From positions 1 through 40,417 of the IMG/VR virus record IMGVR_UViG_3300023099_000014: a DNA stretch of 40,417 bases; one strand, written 5' to 3'. The DNA is from a virus. This document shows positions 11,340 through 16,453 of this stretch, piece after piece; the first letter of the stretch is position 1; each line of letters starts with the position of its first letter. The notes under the pieces were generated by a model. The model was given only the letters and a program-made list of their open reading frames with translations, had not been told where the DNA came from and did no database searches. The translations under genes and the position numbers were made by a program.

Positions 11340-12023
11340 ATGCGTAGACGGCAAGAACATAAGGCTCCCTTTGTGGTGCTCAAGGCGACCAGCATGGGCC
11401 ACGACATCTGCGTGGCTGCGCTGGAAGTCGGTGACGGCTTTCTGTGCTTGAAGTTCTCTCTGGGCGTGAGCCAAGTAGAGACCTTCGTCGCCAAGAAGGA
11501 TGACTTCACGTGGCGGCATAAGCTTTCTGATCTACCTTTGGCCCCGCAACTGCAGGAGCTAAAGGCCAAGGCCTTGCGCCATGGAGCCACGCTGGAGGCT
11601 ATCCAGCTTCTTGGGACGCTGATGTCCCTATCCAAACCTGAGGAGGCCACCATGGCCCAGACCAAGCTGTCGTCCAAAGCCACGCCGGACAAGGAAGGCC
11701 TCAAGGCCGCCGCCAAGTCCACGCCCGTCAACCCGGCCAAGAAGGCTACTCCGGCCGCCAAGGCCGATGCTCCGGCCAAGCCCAAGGGCAACGTGGCCGC
11801 GCTGCAAAAGGCTCGTGAAGCCCGCGCCGCCAAGGGCCCGGACGAGCGCAAGATCAAGGTGCTGAACAAGAAGCACACCGCCCGCGAAGGCACCTTCCGC
11901 GCCACCATGCTGGAAGACCTGTTCGCCAGCAAGACCGTCGCGGAGTTCCGCGCGAAGGACTCGAAGTACGACGCGGGCTGCCTGAAGTTCGCCGTCGACG
12001 CCGGGTACGTCTCGGTCGGCTAA
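11340..12023 (+). CDS. Lys/Ala-rich basic protein with phage C-terminal domain (possible dual start)
   Basis: A 227-residue frame. Residues 1-95 form a small folded domain (FVVLKATSMGHDICVAALEV). Residues 105-165 are a histone H1-like Lys/Ala/Pro-rich linker. Residues 170-227 are a C-terminal domain ending in AGYVSVG. This last domain is shared with the protein at 39282-40142, so the two are partial paralogues. An internal in-frame ATG at 11652 has a perfect AGGAGG five bases upstream, whereas the ATG at 11340 has only a distant AAGGG. A 123-residue short form is therefore likely, alone or beside the long one. DNA binding is plausible from charge but unproven. Confidence 0.75.
   Translation: MRRRQEHKAPFVVLKATSMGHDICVAALEVGDGFLCLKFSLGVSQVETFVAKKDDFTWRHKLSDLPLAPQLQELKAKALRHGATLEAIQLLGTLMSLSKPEEATMAQTKLSSKATPDKEGLKAAAKSTPVNPAKKATPAAKADAPAKPKGNVAALQKAREARAAKGPDERKIKVLNKKHTAREGTFRATMLEDLFASKTVAEFRAKDSKYDAGCLKFAVDAGYVSVG
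11641..11654 (+). promoter_or_regulatory. Strong internal ribosome binding site and ATG
   Basis: AGGAGG at 11641-11646 precedes ATG 11652 by five bases, in frame with the ORF beginning at 11340. It is the best ribosome site in the neighbourhood, and the same GAGG-TCCACC-ATG style precedes the paralogue at 39282. It suggests that the short C-terminal form is the main product. Confidence 0.65.
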
Positions 12024-12051: not shown

Positions 12052-12088
12052 AAGGCCAGCGTGACTTAACGGTTGCGCTGGCCTTTTC
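12052..12088 (+). terminator. Rho-independent terminator
   Basis: A perfect 10-bp stem, AAGGCCAGCG (12052-12061) with CGCTGGCCTT (12076-12085), a 14-base loop, then a short T run (TTTT to 12087). It separates the replication block from the glycosyltransferase cassette, which starts only 21 bases downstream. The cassette must therefore rely on read-through or on a promoter overlapping this region. Confidence 0.85.
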
Positions 12089-12108: not shown

Positions 12109-13380
12109 ATGTCGAAGGTTCTGTATGTGGTCCCCCATGGGGCGGACTTGGGCGGTATTATCACCGCTAGCGAAAACTACATGGCAGGCTTCAAAGAAGC
12201 TAGCCACACAGCGACGTTCATAACCGTCAGCTTCAGCAAGACCAACCGTGGTGTTGGCGGCGAGCCGCGCGGCAAGTATGAGCGCGAGTTCACGCGCGGC
12301 GTGGGCACGGGCGAACTGATGCACCCCACGCAAGGCTGGCGCGGCGAGCGGCGCATCAGCATCTGTACGCCGGAAGGCGTCAAAGAATTCATCAAGCTCG
12401 CTAACGCACACGACGTCGTGGTGTGGGCCAGTATGTTCGGCTTCCGCAACGAAGCGACCGAGGGCACGACGCTCTGGCTAGACGCCATCCGCAAGCACAA
12501 GGCGGGTAACGTGTTCATGATCCATGACGACCACATGCCCAAGCGCTATCTGTGGGCCGCCAGCCTGGGCAAGTATGCCGCCGCCTTTGTGGGCGTGCAG
12601 CCGTGCAGCCTGGAGAGCACCGTAGGCGTGGCTAGCCCGCGCGCCATGGTCTATACGGCCATCCCCACGCCGCCAGGGCGGGTTACGCCCATGGAGATGC
12701 GCGCGGGCTTCATGTCCATCCAGGTGTGGAAGCAATGGAAGCGCGCCGACGCCCTGGTGCGCGCCGTGCCGCACATGCCCAAGGGCAAGGTCTTCTTCGC
12801 CGGCGATGGCATTGCCCTACGCTACATGCGCAGTGAGACCAAGTGCCCTGATAAGTTCAAGGACGAGAAGGGCGTGCCCATCTGGACCACGGCCATGAAG
12901 AAGGCGCACTATATGGGCGTGCTGGACGAGACGATGCGGGACGCCCACTTCCGCGCCAGTAAGTTCCTGGTGGACCTGAGCGTACGCCAGAACAGCGGGC
13001 AGCTGAACCGCGTGGTGCAGGAGGCTATGGCCCAAGGTTGCGTCGTCATCGCCAATCCACGGTTCCTCACCGGCACCACGCCTAACCCCATCTTCGTGCC
13101 GGGGCGTGACTACCTGCCTATCGACACGAACCTGGAGCCGCGTAAGCTGGCCGATGTGCTGGGCGAGTACGACCACATAGACGCGACAGCCTACGCCAAA
13201 ATCCAGCGCAGCGCCCGCGCCAAGCTGGGCTTGTTCAACCGCGCCCACGCGGCGGAGGACCTTGTGCAGCTAGGATTGGGCAAAATTGCGGGAGCGGCCT
13301 GTTACCCCGCAGAGCCCGACAAGGATATGATCAAGCGCGCCACGGAAGAGTTCGTGGCTATCTTTGGAGCTAAGCCATGA
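12109..13380 (+). CDS. GT-B glycosyltransferase (GT4-like), candidate DNA glycosyltransferase
   Basis: A 423-residue protein with a two-Rossmann GT-B layout. The N-terminal half starts with VLYVVPHGADLGG and has a Gly-rich acceptor-side loop. The C-terminal half has GKVFFAGDG, then the donor-site segment RVVQEAMAQGCVVIANP, which carries the Glu and Gly typical of GT4 enzymes. There is no signal peptide or membrane segment, so it acts in the cytoplasm. AGGGAG precedes the ATG. The stop overlaps the next start (ATGATG) and the neighbours are thymidine-modification enzymes, so I infer that it glycosylates a hydroxymethylated base in phage DNA. Modification of a virion or host glycan is the alternative. 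Confidence 0.8.
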   Translation: MSKVLYVVPHGADLGGIITASENYMAGFKEASHTATFITVSFSKTNRGVGGEPRGKYEREFTRGVGTGELMHPTQGWRGERRISICTPEGVKEFIKLANAHDVVVWASMFGFRNEATEGTTLWLDAIRKHKAGNVFMIHDDHMPKRYLWAASLGKYAAAFVGVQPCSLESTVGVASPRAMVYTAIPTPPGRVTPMEMRAGFMSIQVWKQWKRADALVRAVPHMPKGKVFFAGDGIALRYMRSETKCPDKFKDEKGVPIWTTAMKKAHYMGVLDETMRDAHFRASKFLVDLSVRQNSGQLNRVVQEAMAQGCVVIANPRFLTGTTPNPIFVPGRDYLPIDTNLEPRKLADVLGEYDHIDATAYAKIQRSARAKLGLFNRAHAAEDLVQLGLGKIAGAACYPAEPDKDMIKRATEEFVAIFGAKP

Positions 13381-14225
13381 TGCGCGTTCTGGACCTATGT
13401 ACTTTCATCATCGCGCGGGAGAAGGTGCGCGTCAACAAAGCTGACGGGCTGCCGCGCGCCAAGTGGACCAAAGACCCCATTCTAGCCAAGTATCGGTTCT
13501 GTAATATTCACCGCGAAGACGATGCGGTAACCAAGTGGATCGCCAGACACTGGCGAGATGATTTCATGTCTGGAAATAGACCAGACCATCTATGGTTCGC
13601 CATGGTCATCGCCCGTCTGTTCAACAACCCGGACACGCTGGCGGAGATTGGCTTTCCGCTGCCTTACAAGCCGGAGAAGCTACGCGCCGCCTTGCACCGC
13701 CGCAAGGCGCGTGGAGACAAGGTGTTCAACAGCGCGTACATCGTCAGCACCAACGGCCACACGGGCGACAAGATCGACTATCTGTTTGACAAGGTGCTTG
13801 GACCGTTGTGGACTAGCCGTGAGTGGGCTATGCCGACAAAGGGTGATACTCTGGCCGACTTCCATGAGCGCCTCATGACTTTCGACGGCCTCGGCAGCTT
13901 CATGGCCGCCCAAGTGGTGGCCGACATGAAGTACGTGGAGCCACTCAGATCGGCCTCAGACTGGCAAACCTTTGCTGCCAGCGGCCCAGGCAGCAGGCGC
14001 GGCCTTAACCGGGTATGCGGCCTGCCTGTGGATAATTACTGGCGTGGGACTAACTGGAATGTTACCCTGGAGACCCTGCACATGGCCGTGAACGCCCGGC
14101 TGGCCAAGCACGACATTGAGCTACACGCCCAAGACTTGCAGAACTGCCTCTGCGAGTTCGACAAATATGAGCGCGTCCGCCTTGGCGAGGGCACGCCCAA
14201 GCAACTCTATAAGGAGAAGTCATGA
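13377..14225 (+). CDS. Helical protein of the 5-hmdU DNA kinase / aGPT-Pplase (amino acid:DNA transferase) type
   Basis: A 282-residue protein. WTKDPILAKYRFCNIHRE (30-47) matches the hallmark of the helical domain found in phage 5-hydroxymethyl-dU DNA kinases and alpha-glutamyl/putrescinyl thymine pyrophosphorylases. Later it has FDGLGSFMAAQVVADMKY, a helix-hairpin-helix DNA-glycosylase-like segment, and AASGPGSRRGLNR, also typical. No P-loop is visible, so this is a stand-alone helical protein, not a kinase fusion. Family knowledge: these proteins act on hmdU already in DNA, activating it or attaching amino-acid-like groups. It is translationally coupled to the glycosyltransferase (ATGATG) and lies just upstream of the synthase. 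The exact clade cannot be decided by eye. Confidence 0.72.
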   Translation: MMRVLDLCTFIIAREKVRVNKADGLPRAKWTKDPILAKYRFCNIHREDDAVTKWIARHWRDDFMSGNRPDHLWFAMVIARLFNNPDTLAEIGFPLPYKPEKLRAALHRRKARGDKVFNSAYIVSTNGHTGDKIDYLFDKVLGPLWTSREWAMPTKGDTLADFHERLMTFDGLGSFMAAQVVADMKYVEPLRSASDWQTFAASGPGSRRGLNRVCGLPVDNYWRGTNWNVTLETLHMAVNARLAKHDIELHAQDLQNCLCEFDKYERVRLGEGTPKQLYKEKS

Positions 14226-14479
14226 TAGAGTGGCTGAACACAGATGGGCGTTGGGTATCTTGGCTGCTTGCTAGCGGGTTTGGTGCGGTGATTATAGGCG
14301 GCGTCGCTGGCATGTTTCACGAGATTGATCATATGTTCTGGCGCACATCTTCGTGGCGGCGCGAAGAACAGCCTGAGCCAATGTACTGGCATTACTTCCT
14401 TCAGTTAGCGGTTATCGCCATCGTAGCGTGCGTGGTAATCGCTGTTGGTATCTACTTCAGCCCGAATAGGATTAGATAA
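14222..14479 (+). CDS. Small membrane protein inside the modification cassette
   Basis: An 85-residue protein with two hydrophobic segments, about residues 13-31 (WLLASGFGAVIIGGVAGMF) and 58-78 (YFLQLAVIAIVACVVIAVGI), joined by a charged loop. It is probably an inner-membrane hairpin. AAGGAG lies six bases upstream of the ATG. No family recognised. Its location between two DNA-modification genes is odd; it may be an unrelated cargo gene, a superinfection or lysis-related protein, or a partner of the glycosyltransferase (all inference). Confidence 0.75.
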   Translation: MIEWLNTDGRWVSWLLASGFGAVIIGGVAGMFHEIDHMFWRTSSWRREEQPEPMYWHYFLQLAVIAIVACVVIAVGIYFSPNRIR

Positions 14480-15598
14480 ATGGTTCGCTGCATCAACGTT
14501 CATAACGTCAACCAAGGCCTTGCAGAGGGCCTGCGCCTGCTGGCCCATAGCGGCGTGAGCAAGTCCAGTCGCAACGGCCCGGTGATCCGCTGCCGGGAGC
14601 CGGTGATCACCACCTACACCGACCCCACGGCCCGCGTCCTGTTCAGCCCGCTGCGGGACGCCAATCCCTTCTTCCACGTCATGGAGGCGCTGTGGATGCT
14701 GGCCGGGCGGAACGACCTGCCGTGGCTGGCGCAGTTCAACAAGAACATGTTGAGCTATAGCGACGACGGCGGGCGCACCCAGCCCGGAGCGTACGGCTAC
14801 CGGTGGCGTAAGCACTTCGGCTATGACCAGTTGAACGAGGTCGTGGCGCGGCTGGCAGGCGATAACGACGACCGGCGCACCGTGCTGGCCATGTGGGACG
14901 CAGGCCAGCACTCCGATCCCGGCGAGTACAACGCGCCGCCCATTATCGGCGACCTGATCAACGCTCAATTCAGCGCCGACGTACCGTGCAACACGCACGC
15001 CTATTTCGAGATACAGGACGGCAAGCTGAACATGACCGTGCTGTGCCGCAGCAACGACATCTGGTGGGGTGCGTACGGAGCCAACGCCGTCCACTTCAGC
15101 TTCCTACTAGAGTACGTGGCCGCCATGGTGGGCGTGGACGTCGGTGTCTACAACCAGTTCAGCAATAACTTTCACATCTATCCGGGCAAGCTGCCGGGCG
15201 GCGCTTTCGATGCGCCGCACAGGTTCGAGACACTGCAAGAAGACGCCCGCCATAGCGACCAGTATACCGAGGCCGCTCCCGCCCACACGCCGCGCAACAT
15301 TCCCCGTACCCCGGCGCTGCTGCGCGTGCCGTTGGTTAGTGATCCGGAAAGCTTCAACGACGAGCTTAACCTATTCATGGCGGGATGGTGTGTCGATCAC
15401 ACGTGGAAGAACCAATTCTTCAAGAGTGTCGCCCGGCCCATGTGGGACGCATGGCAGGCTTTCAAGATGGGCGACTTCCACGCCGCCGAGAAGCACGCCG
15501 AGAGCATCAAGGCCGGTGACTGGTCCATCGCGTGCTGCGATTGGCTGGAGCGGCGCAACCAAAAGCGGCTGGCCAAGCTGCGCAACGGAGTAGGCTGA
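14480..15598 (+). CDS. Thymidylate synthase homologue, probable dUMP (dNMP) hydroxymethylase
   Basis: A 372-residue protein, much longer than the ~264 residues of bacterial ThyA and close to the size of phage dNMP hydroxymethylases. The catalytic Cys is C170 in VPCNTHAYF. The dUMP-binding CRSNDIWWGAYGANAVHF (189-206) carries the phosphate-binding Arg190-Ser191 and Asn202. GAYGYRWR (103-110) corresponds to the YGxxWR loop. The enzyme uses methylene-tetrahydrofolate on dUMP, and either dTMP or 5-hydroxymethyl-dUMP could be the product. Placement after the helical hmdU-DNA protein and before an HD phosphohydrolase favours hydroxymethylase. The stop overlaps the next start (TGATG). Plain thymidylate synthase remains possible. 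Confidence 0.87.
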   Translation: MVRCINVHNVNQGLAEGLRLLAHSGVSKSSRNGPVIRCREPVITTYTDPTARVLFSPLRDANPFFHVMEALWMLAGRNDLPWLAQFNKNMLSYSDDGGRTQPGAYGYRWRKHFGYDQLNEVVARLAGDNDDRRTVLAMWDAGQHSDPGEYNAPPIIGDLINAQFSADVPCNTHAYFEIQDGKLNMTVLCRSNDIWWGAYGANAVHFSFLLEYVAAMVGVDVGVYNQFSNNFHIYPGKLPGGAFDAPHRFETLQEDARHSDQYTEAAPAHTPRNIPRTPALLRVPLVSDPESFNDELNLFMAGWCVDHTWKNQFFKSVARPMWDAWQAFKMGDFHAAEKHAESIKAGDWSIACCDWLERRNQKRLAKLRNGVG

Positions 15599-16179
15599 TG
15601 GAAACCCTCGACTTCATCCGCAACGGCGGCGAGACCCGCCGCTACCACACCATCCCCGTTCTGCGCAGCCAGAATGTTGCGGAGCATAGTTTTCATGTGG
15701 CTATGCTGTGCTCGTGGCTTGTGGGGCATAGTGTGCCCGGCATTGGCGCGGCGCTGCTTATGGCGGCCCTCACCCACGATCTGGCCGAGCATAAGATGGG
15801 CGACCTGCCCGCGCCCGTGAAGCGTAGCCTGCCGGATTATGAACAGTCCGAGGGCGAAGCTCGTCCATTCCGTCAGGTGTGGGATGACCTGGAGCAAGAA
15901 CATCTGGAAGCAGCAGAGCTAAACTGGGACCACGTTCTCACGCCGTTTGAGCGCCGCATCCTTAAGCTGGCCGACGCCGCCGAGGGCTGCCTGTACTGCA
16001 TCCGCGAGCGGGCTATGGGCAACCGCTTGATCACGGAAGTGTTTGGCAACTTCCTCAGTTATACGGAGAAGCTAATCAACGACCGCACCGTCGGCGTGAA
16101 CGAAGCACAGTGCGACCAGGAAGCGACTCTGCTCGCTTACATCAACTTTGAATGGAGTAAAGCCAATGACCCCGCGTAA
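15598..16179 (+). CDS. HD-domain nucleotide phosphohydrolase (YfbR/HDDC2-like)
   Basis: A 193-residue protein. The metal ligands are seen as VAEH (H30), the HD pair H60-D61 in THDLAEH, and D126 in LADAAEG, which is the HD set of YfbR-type deoxynucleotidases. YfbR cleaves dNMPs to nucleosides, and the related phage enzyme DatZ destroys dATP in diaminopurine phages. By analogy, this enzyme could deplete a normal thymidine or uridine nucleotide so the modified one is used; substrate is inference. The start at 15598 overlaps the synthase stop and gives METLDFIRNG, typical of the family N-terminus. Confidence 0.85.
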   Translation: METLDFIRNGGETRRYHTIPVLRSQNVAEHSFHVAMLCSWLVGHSVPGIGAALLMAALTHDLAEHKMGDLPAPVKRSLPDYEQSEGEARPFRQVWDDLEQEHLEAAELNWDHVLTPFERRILKLADAAEGCLYCIRERAMGNRLITEVFGNFLSYTEKLINDRTVGVNEAQCDQEATLLAYINFEWSKANDPA

Positions 16180-16420
16180 GACCACCAGCACTGCCGATGC
16201 CAACAGCCGCCAAGTGGCGGGCACCCACTACGCCGCAGAAAGCGGCATTCAGCACTGGGACATCGTGGCCCAGCATGATCTGGATTACTTCCAGGGCCAG
16301 ATCACCAAGTATGTGATGCGCGCCAAAAAGAAGAACGGCGTGGAAGACCTGCACAAGGCTAAGCACTTCCTAGAGAAATACATCGAGCTCGTAGAAGCAG
16401 GCGAAATCTCCAGCTTCTAA
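16166..16420 (+). CDS. DUF3310 protein
   Basis: An 84-residue protein. HYAAESGIQHWDIV, then FQGQITKYVMRAKKKNG and HKAKHFLEKYIEL, match DUF3310, a small helical domain common in phages and sometimes labelled nucleotide kinase without proof. GGAG precedes ATG 16166 by eight bases. It is the last gene of the rightward block and ends six bases before the shared terminator. A link to nucleotide metabolism is suggested only by position. Confidence 0.85.
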   Translation: MTPRKTTSTADANSRQVAGTHYAAESGIQHWDIVAQHDLDYFQGQITKYVMRAKKKNGVEDLHKAKHFLEKYIELVEAGEISSF

Positions 16421-16425
16421 ACGGC

Positions 16426-16453
16426 AAGGCCGCCCTTATGGGGCGGCCTTTTT
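16426..16453. terminator. Hairpin terminator between convergent operons
   Basis: A perfect 10-bp stem, AAGGCCGCCC (16426-16435) and GGGCGGCCTT (16441-16450), with a five-base loop, followed by TTT for the + strand. The loop holds the stop codon of the leftward gene at 16436, so the last leftward codons are part of the hairpin. It ends rightward transcription well. Leftward termination is weaker because no T run follows on that strand. Confidence 0.9.

Follow-up and report, generated by a model that had tools for sequence, protein, structure and literature searches.

What modification would a phage make if, among genes resembling those of a known thymidine hypermodification pathway, it carried a glycosyltransferase (GT) in the position of the kinase? 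This question is raised by positions 12109–16420 of the linear IMG/VR virus record IMGVR_UViG_3300023099_000014, the whole of which (40,417 bases) is referred to here as the window. In this region, six tightly coupled open reading frames (ORFs) lie between two terminator-like hairpins and encode, in order, a GT-B glycosyltransferase, a helical protein (HEL), a small membrane protein, a thymidylate synthase (TS) homologue, an HD phosphohydrolase and a DUF3310 protein. All six were present as described in the original prediction, which had called the row a cassette 'ending in a glycosyltransferase', whereas the transcription unit begins with the GT. Judging from its gene content and relatives, the operon probably serves to replace thymine with 5-hydroxymethyldeoxyuridine (5-hmdU) at replication and then to glycosylate 5-hmdU in DNA, which would make it a phage counterpart of base J.

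The original assignment of HEL (13377–14225, + strand) to a 5-hmdU-DNA/aGPT-Pplase type held in a profile search, in which it matched PF18723 (HMUDK_hel) with E = 2.4e-40 and 139 bits against a curated cut-off of 25, over profile positions 7–277 of 281. M6 gp55 belongs to the same family, whose name in older annotations is aGPT-PPlase1. The absence of a visible P-loop kinase, also part of the original prediction, extended to the whole 40,417-base record, where a 5-hmdU DNA kinase profile of 13 sequences, including M6 gp54 (which matches PF18748), gave no match. When whole records were searched with this profile, 0 of 24 GT-type records (the window and 23 others) contained the kinase, versus all 7 kinase-type records used as positive controls. 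The amino acid:DNA transferase ADDT (PF18724), found in M6 gp51 and in P26218 gp14, likewise was not matched anywhere in the record. These results on gene families, on operon structure and on the absence of both kinase and ADDT were all established computationally.

HEL relatives were gathered from IMG/VR with two HEL queries and dereplicated at 90% HEL identity. The gene order around HEL and TS was recurrent (helicase – variable slot – HEL – TS – HD – DUF3310), and the slot held a P-loop kinase, TAGT (PF20691, E = 1e-21), the family of the window GT (named GT7 in this work), GT10 or GT6 (both GT-like in sequence) or the TAGT-like C12, sometimes together with a radical SAM-SPASM or sulfotransferase-like protein. 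Among the 60 HEL+TS cassettes of the set obtained with HEL queries only, 20 had a kinase, 39 a GT, none had both and one had neither; the single cassette with neither proved to carry a TAGT–radical SAM fusion, which gives a split of 20/40/0/0, where the 40 are GTs or putative GTs. Such a split would have a chance of about 2e-16 if the loci were independent, which they are not, and clustering at 60% HEL identity left 13 kinase, 27 GT, 0 both and 1 neither. Since the loci are not independent, the kinase/GT label was mapped on the HEL tree, where it changes at least 13 times, with 6 changes forced by well-supported (starred) branches. This repeated switching indicates that relatedness alone does not explain the exclusion of kinase and GT, and relatedness was therefore rejected as its cause; writers were swapped repeatedly, each time for a kinase or a GT. 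Ascertainment bias from the scans with GT and kinase queries was also considered, and the recount on HEL-query loci only gave no cassette with both.

The either/or writer rule and the repeated exchange of writers are thus computed results, and wider sets could be set beside them. With loci from GT or kinase queries added (143 cassettes), a kinase occurred together with TAGT, GT7, GT10 or C12 in 0/143. TAGT relatives adjoined HEL+TS in 57 of 62 cases. In contigs of bacterial and archaeal genomes (HEL query only; counts read from the per-locus output), there were 6 kinase and 5 clear GT cassettes, 0 with both and 2 without a writer found. Accessory genes of the 143-cassette set were distributed by writer: ADDT was found with a kinase in 19/19 and PLP in 14/15, while radical SAM-SPASM was found with a GT only in 22/24 and the sulfotransferase-like family with a GT in 4/4. 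This sorting fits two chemistries, namely a kinase step followed by amino acid transfer, and direct glycosylation followed by tailoring. At one locus (L316:3324-5063), next to HEL and TS, a single protein of 579 aa joins TAGT to a radical SAM-SPASM domain, which suggests that the radical SAM enzyme may tailor the sugar or the glycosylated base. Two others (L013 and L079) have sulfotransferase-like proteins in a GT-type slot, predicting possible sulfated sugar or base modifications.

Identification of the window GT (12109–13380, + strand), the proposed writer, came from sub-threshold Pfam matches, a structural model and the neighbours of its relatives. Its match to Glyco_trans_1_2 (E = 0.007) scored 16.7 bits, below the gathering cut-off of 25, and Glyco_trans_1_4 was also sub-threshold. 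The AlphaFold2 (AF2) model, of low to modest confidence (pLDDT 56, five sequences), had the two-Rossmann GT-B fold and gave 213 PDB matches at E≤0.001, with GT-B enzymes predominating among the highest-ranked (best E = 1e-9); T4 alpha-glucosyltransferase structures with UDP and hydroxymethyluracil (hmU) DNA were among the best (1y8z, E = 6e-9). The TAGT (PF20691) profile had no match in the window GT, and TAGT is a different GT family, which takes this slot in other phages. Neither megablast with the first 25 kb of the window nor tblastn with the GT gave a match in a phage collection, plasmids gave none, and a scan of IMG/VR with the single GT sequence returned no relative; relatives were found only with a 3-sequence profile.

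The rare GT7 family comprised three distinct loci with HEL+TS and two with TET (L090 and L092, probably one phage type). In the latter two, which lack HEL and TS, the gene coupled to the GT encodes a TET/JBP dioxygenase (PF12851, E = 1e-15). GT10 loci split likewise, 28 with HEL+TS and 18 with TET, and HEL was absent from the TET-type loci seen in the survey. TET/JBP and dUMP (deoxyuridine monophosphate) hydroxymethylase have in common that they lead to hydroxymethyl groups on DNA pyrimidines, so the occurrence of GT7 and GT10 beside either of these hydroxymethyl-makers is the strongest clue to the substrate of the GT. Two more distant GT7 proteins (L440 and L441) adjoin HEL+TS in contigs binned as marine Bacteroidota. 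After the coupled TET/JBP and GT7 genes at L090:6571-11016 comes a protein whose match to GmrSD_N is near threshold, and a peptide deformylase lies upstream. The original proposal that a GT in place of the kinase may lead to a different end product is thus supported by the 60 cassettes without co-occurrence, the 23 kinase-free GT-type records, ADDT and PLP following the kinase, the match of the model to the T4 enzyme with HMU-DNA, and the TET/JBP neighbours of GT7 and GT10 relatives at loci that lack HEL and TS.

The TS homologue (14480–15598, + strand; PF00303, E = 3.5e-17; phrog_5131, E = 2e-105) is 45% identical to the enzyme of the M6 phage group over 96% of its length and 36% identical to that of the SPO1-like CampHawk. 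It retains the active-site Cys and the Asn of the ThyA N177 type that specifies uridylate, so dUMP is its likely substrate, and its M6 and SPO1-like relatives suggest a putative hydroxymethylase rather than a synthase. Trp80 of ThyA was considered as a hydroxymethylase marker and rejected as non-discriminating, because T4 gp42 has Trp there. The HD protein (15598–16179, + strand), a proposed 5'-deoxynucleotidase, is YfbR-like (PF12917, E = 1e-13), with PDB matches to YfbR (1e-8) and, more weakly, to DatZ (6zpa, 2e-5). Members of the DatZ family remove a normal deoxynucleoside triphosphate in phages with a replaced base. The DUF3310 protein (16166–16420, + strand; PF11753, E = 1e-9) corresponds to the C-terminal domain of the T7 gp1.7 nucleotide kinase, whose residues 122–184 match PF11753 with E = 4.5e-23.

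We infer each catalytic step of the proposed pathway from these assignments. The TS homologue would convert dUMP to hmdUMP, as its homology suggests, and the HD protein may plausibly clear the competing dTMP and dTTP. Host kinases, perhaps with the help of the DUF3310 protein, would then raise hmdUMP to hmdUTP, which the phage polymerase would incorporate opposite A. Finally, the GT-B enzyme would use a nucleotide-sugar donor to glycosylate the DNA at the 5-hydroxymethyl group, and HEL would work with this writer, its most likely part being the recognition and presentation of hmU within the DNA.

The role of HEL is the least certain of these steps. Two thirds of the HEL-query cassettes have HEL but no kinase and, being common to kinase-type and GT-type cassettes, HEL is not a kinase-specific domain, despite its Pfam name. 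The name aGPT-PPlase raised the idea of an amino-acid transferase, which was rejected for these cassettes because ADDT forms a family of its own that is restricted to kinase cassettes, because HEL also occurs without a kinase, and because no HEL was found in phage P26218, which has both kinase and ADDT, in a search run without its own positive control but with the same profile that detects the window HEL. The HEL model was all-helical with high confidence (pLDDT 95.7); the PDB held no sequence relatives, and its nearest structural neighbour was the PaMx11 5-PmdU glycinyltransferase (8z2m; prob 0.89, E 0.16, TM 0.41). Since this fold match is weak, the idea of a helix-hairpin-helix (HhH) or glycosylase-like protein stays tentative. 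We give about an even chance to a base-recognition or presentation role of HEL on hmU DNA that is common to both writers. HEL-like proteins without TS or writer nearby were also observed (L424, L427, L430, L447–L488) in contigs of Alphaproteobacteria, Patescibacteria and others, and aGPT-Pplase has been listed among predicted defence domains (PMC13092281).

Several observations weigh against the glycosylated 5-hmdU pathway, and some of them favour other explanations. Many phage GTs target surface glycans, and the best PDB match of the window GT model, whose confidence is low, is PimA, a lipid glycosyltransferase. The virion DNA might accordingly hold plain 5-hmdU, as in SPO1-like phages, with the GT acting on host surface sugars, on the virion or on a free nucleotide before replication. 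We regard this as unlikely, because the start of HEL is coupled to the stop of the GT, several families of GTs or putative GTs take the kinase position and exclude the kinase, GT7 and GT10 adjoin TET/JBP elsewhere, and plain hmdU would require no writer exchange beside HEL. The TS homologue itself could be an ordinary thymidylate synthase in a phage whose DNA has normal T and whose neighbouring genes are decayed or unrelated: synthase and hydroxymethylase have one fold and are hard to separate by sequence, as stated in the relevant part of PMC5977210, and sequence alone cannot prove one activity over the other. This is the least probable of the alternatives, given that the closest relatives are M6 and SPO1-like enzymes, that HEL is well conserved across 80 sequences, and that coupling and reading frames are intact.

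The record also may be incomplete; it is linear, possibly a fragment, and its first ORF is truncated at the left end, so that an M6-type route can be envisaged in which the kinase lies in the missing part and any sugar would go onto a modification derived from an amino acid or from phosphate. A kinase does occur together with GT6 in 3/143 cassettes (L176, L178 and L179), which may mark a hybrid pathway. Nevertheless, this route appears very improbable, because the kinase-free state recurs in all of the other GT-type records searched whole (0/23 versus 7/7 for kinase-type records), ADDT is also absent from the record, and no case of kinase with GT involves GT7. The survey itself has weak points: GT6 as a proven glycosyltransferase was not supported, GT10 is backed as a GT solely through its C-terminal part, which has a profile match to GT7, and the slot region of the first 80 loci served to define the families, which were afterwards assigned in a wider set containing those loci.

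The layout of the locus fits a single transcription unit bounded almost exactly as originally drawn, since an intrinsic-terminator-like hairpin stands at each side. The upstream hairpin (12052–12085, + strand; 15-bp stem, −25.4 kcal/mol, z −5.5, ending in a T-run) divides the cassette from the preceding unit of helicase and lysine-rich genes, and the one at the 3' end (16426–16450, + strand) has an 11-bp stem and a T-run (−21.7 kcal/mol, z −4.0). The stop of the GT and the ATG of HEL overlap as ATGA at 13377; the stop of HEL overlaps the ATG of the small membrane protein (14222–14479, + strand; two hydrophobic segments in the sequence, no confident family match) at 14222; the TS ATG at 14480 directly abuts the stop of the latter. 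The TS/HD junction is a TGATG overlap at 15598, and at 16166 the ATG of DUF3310 overlaps with the 3' end of the HD gene. Just upstream of the cassette, the protein encoded at 11340–12023 has a lysine/alanine-rich middle, and its family recurs between helicase and writer slot in many related cassettes (28 members by slot clustering). The gene content of the record is podovirus-like (primase, ligase, PolA-type polymerase, helicase, portal, major head protein and terminase).

Among known systems, a close likeness is to M6 (5-NedU; with ViI, phiW-14 and SP10), where HEL, the TS-family protein (in the window a putative dUMP hydroxymethylase), HD and DUF3310 follow in the same order (gp55, 58, 59 and 61), but M6 has the kinase gp54 (PF18748), the ADDT gp51 (PF18724), and PLP and radical SAM enzymes, whereas the window lacks all of these and carries a GT instead. 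T4 alpha-glucosyltransferase resembles the window GT at the fold level only (GT-B, about 11–12% identity), and T4 modifies hydroxymethylcytosine made by a dCMP hydroxymethylase, without HEL. TET/JBP-dependent phage DNA glycosyltransferase clusters (TAGT) have reportedly been described by Pyle et al. in 2024; GT7 and GT10 relatives adjoin TET/JBP genes, but the pathway proposed for the window would draw its hydroxymethyl group from nucleotides of the pool rather than from oxidation of the DNA base, and HEL is present. Kinetoplastid base J (glucosyl-hmU) belongs to the predicted product class, glycosylated hmU, yet it arises when JBP oxidises T and JGT then acts, at about 1% of T, according to the passages on it in PMC6449724, through unrelated enzymes and in unrelated organisms.

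The original prediction had also taken the pairing of HEL with a GT as distinctive; the pairing is real, but it recurs throughout our survey and had been noted once before, in pelagiphages (PMC9599517). There, the relevant passages describe TS, aGPT-PPlase1, a 5'-deoxynucleotidase and a putative beta-glucosyl-HMC-alpha-glucosyltransferase in the HTVC023P type, near polA and with the same pairing logic, and suggest that the system is broadened; they report no either/or rule with a kinase. The annotation name of that glucosyltransferase corresponds to phrog_842, which TAGT proteins match, and it is probably of the TAGT type, whereas the window GT belongs to an unrelated GT-B family. Glucosylated 5-hmdU in phage DNA was unreported as of 2019 in the part of PMC6449724 that concerns it. 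Related sections of other papers describe a roughly 1-kDa T modification of YerA41, suspected to be an oligosaccharide (PMC9023294), and glucosyl groups on dihydroxypentyluracil in SP-15 (PMC5977210).

The odds seem to us evenly balanced that these loci represent a second and widespread branch of thymidine hypermodification, where 5-hmdU incorporated at replication would be glycosylated by interchangeable GTs (TAGT, GT7, GT10 and perhaps GT6), followed by radical SAM or sulfotransferase tailoring, with HEL as a universal hmU-DNA docking protein for either writer. Pfam lists HEL as a domain of the 5-hmdU DNA kinase, and our observations suggest for it a kinase-independent function. The cassettes predict that glycosylated hmU is common in uncultivated phages and is made via several unrelated sugar-adding enzymes; if this is true, they would provide tools for transferring sugars to hmU DNA, as well as a phage equivalent of base J with which to study restriction and Type IV defence.

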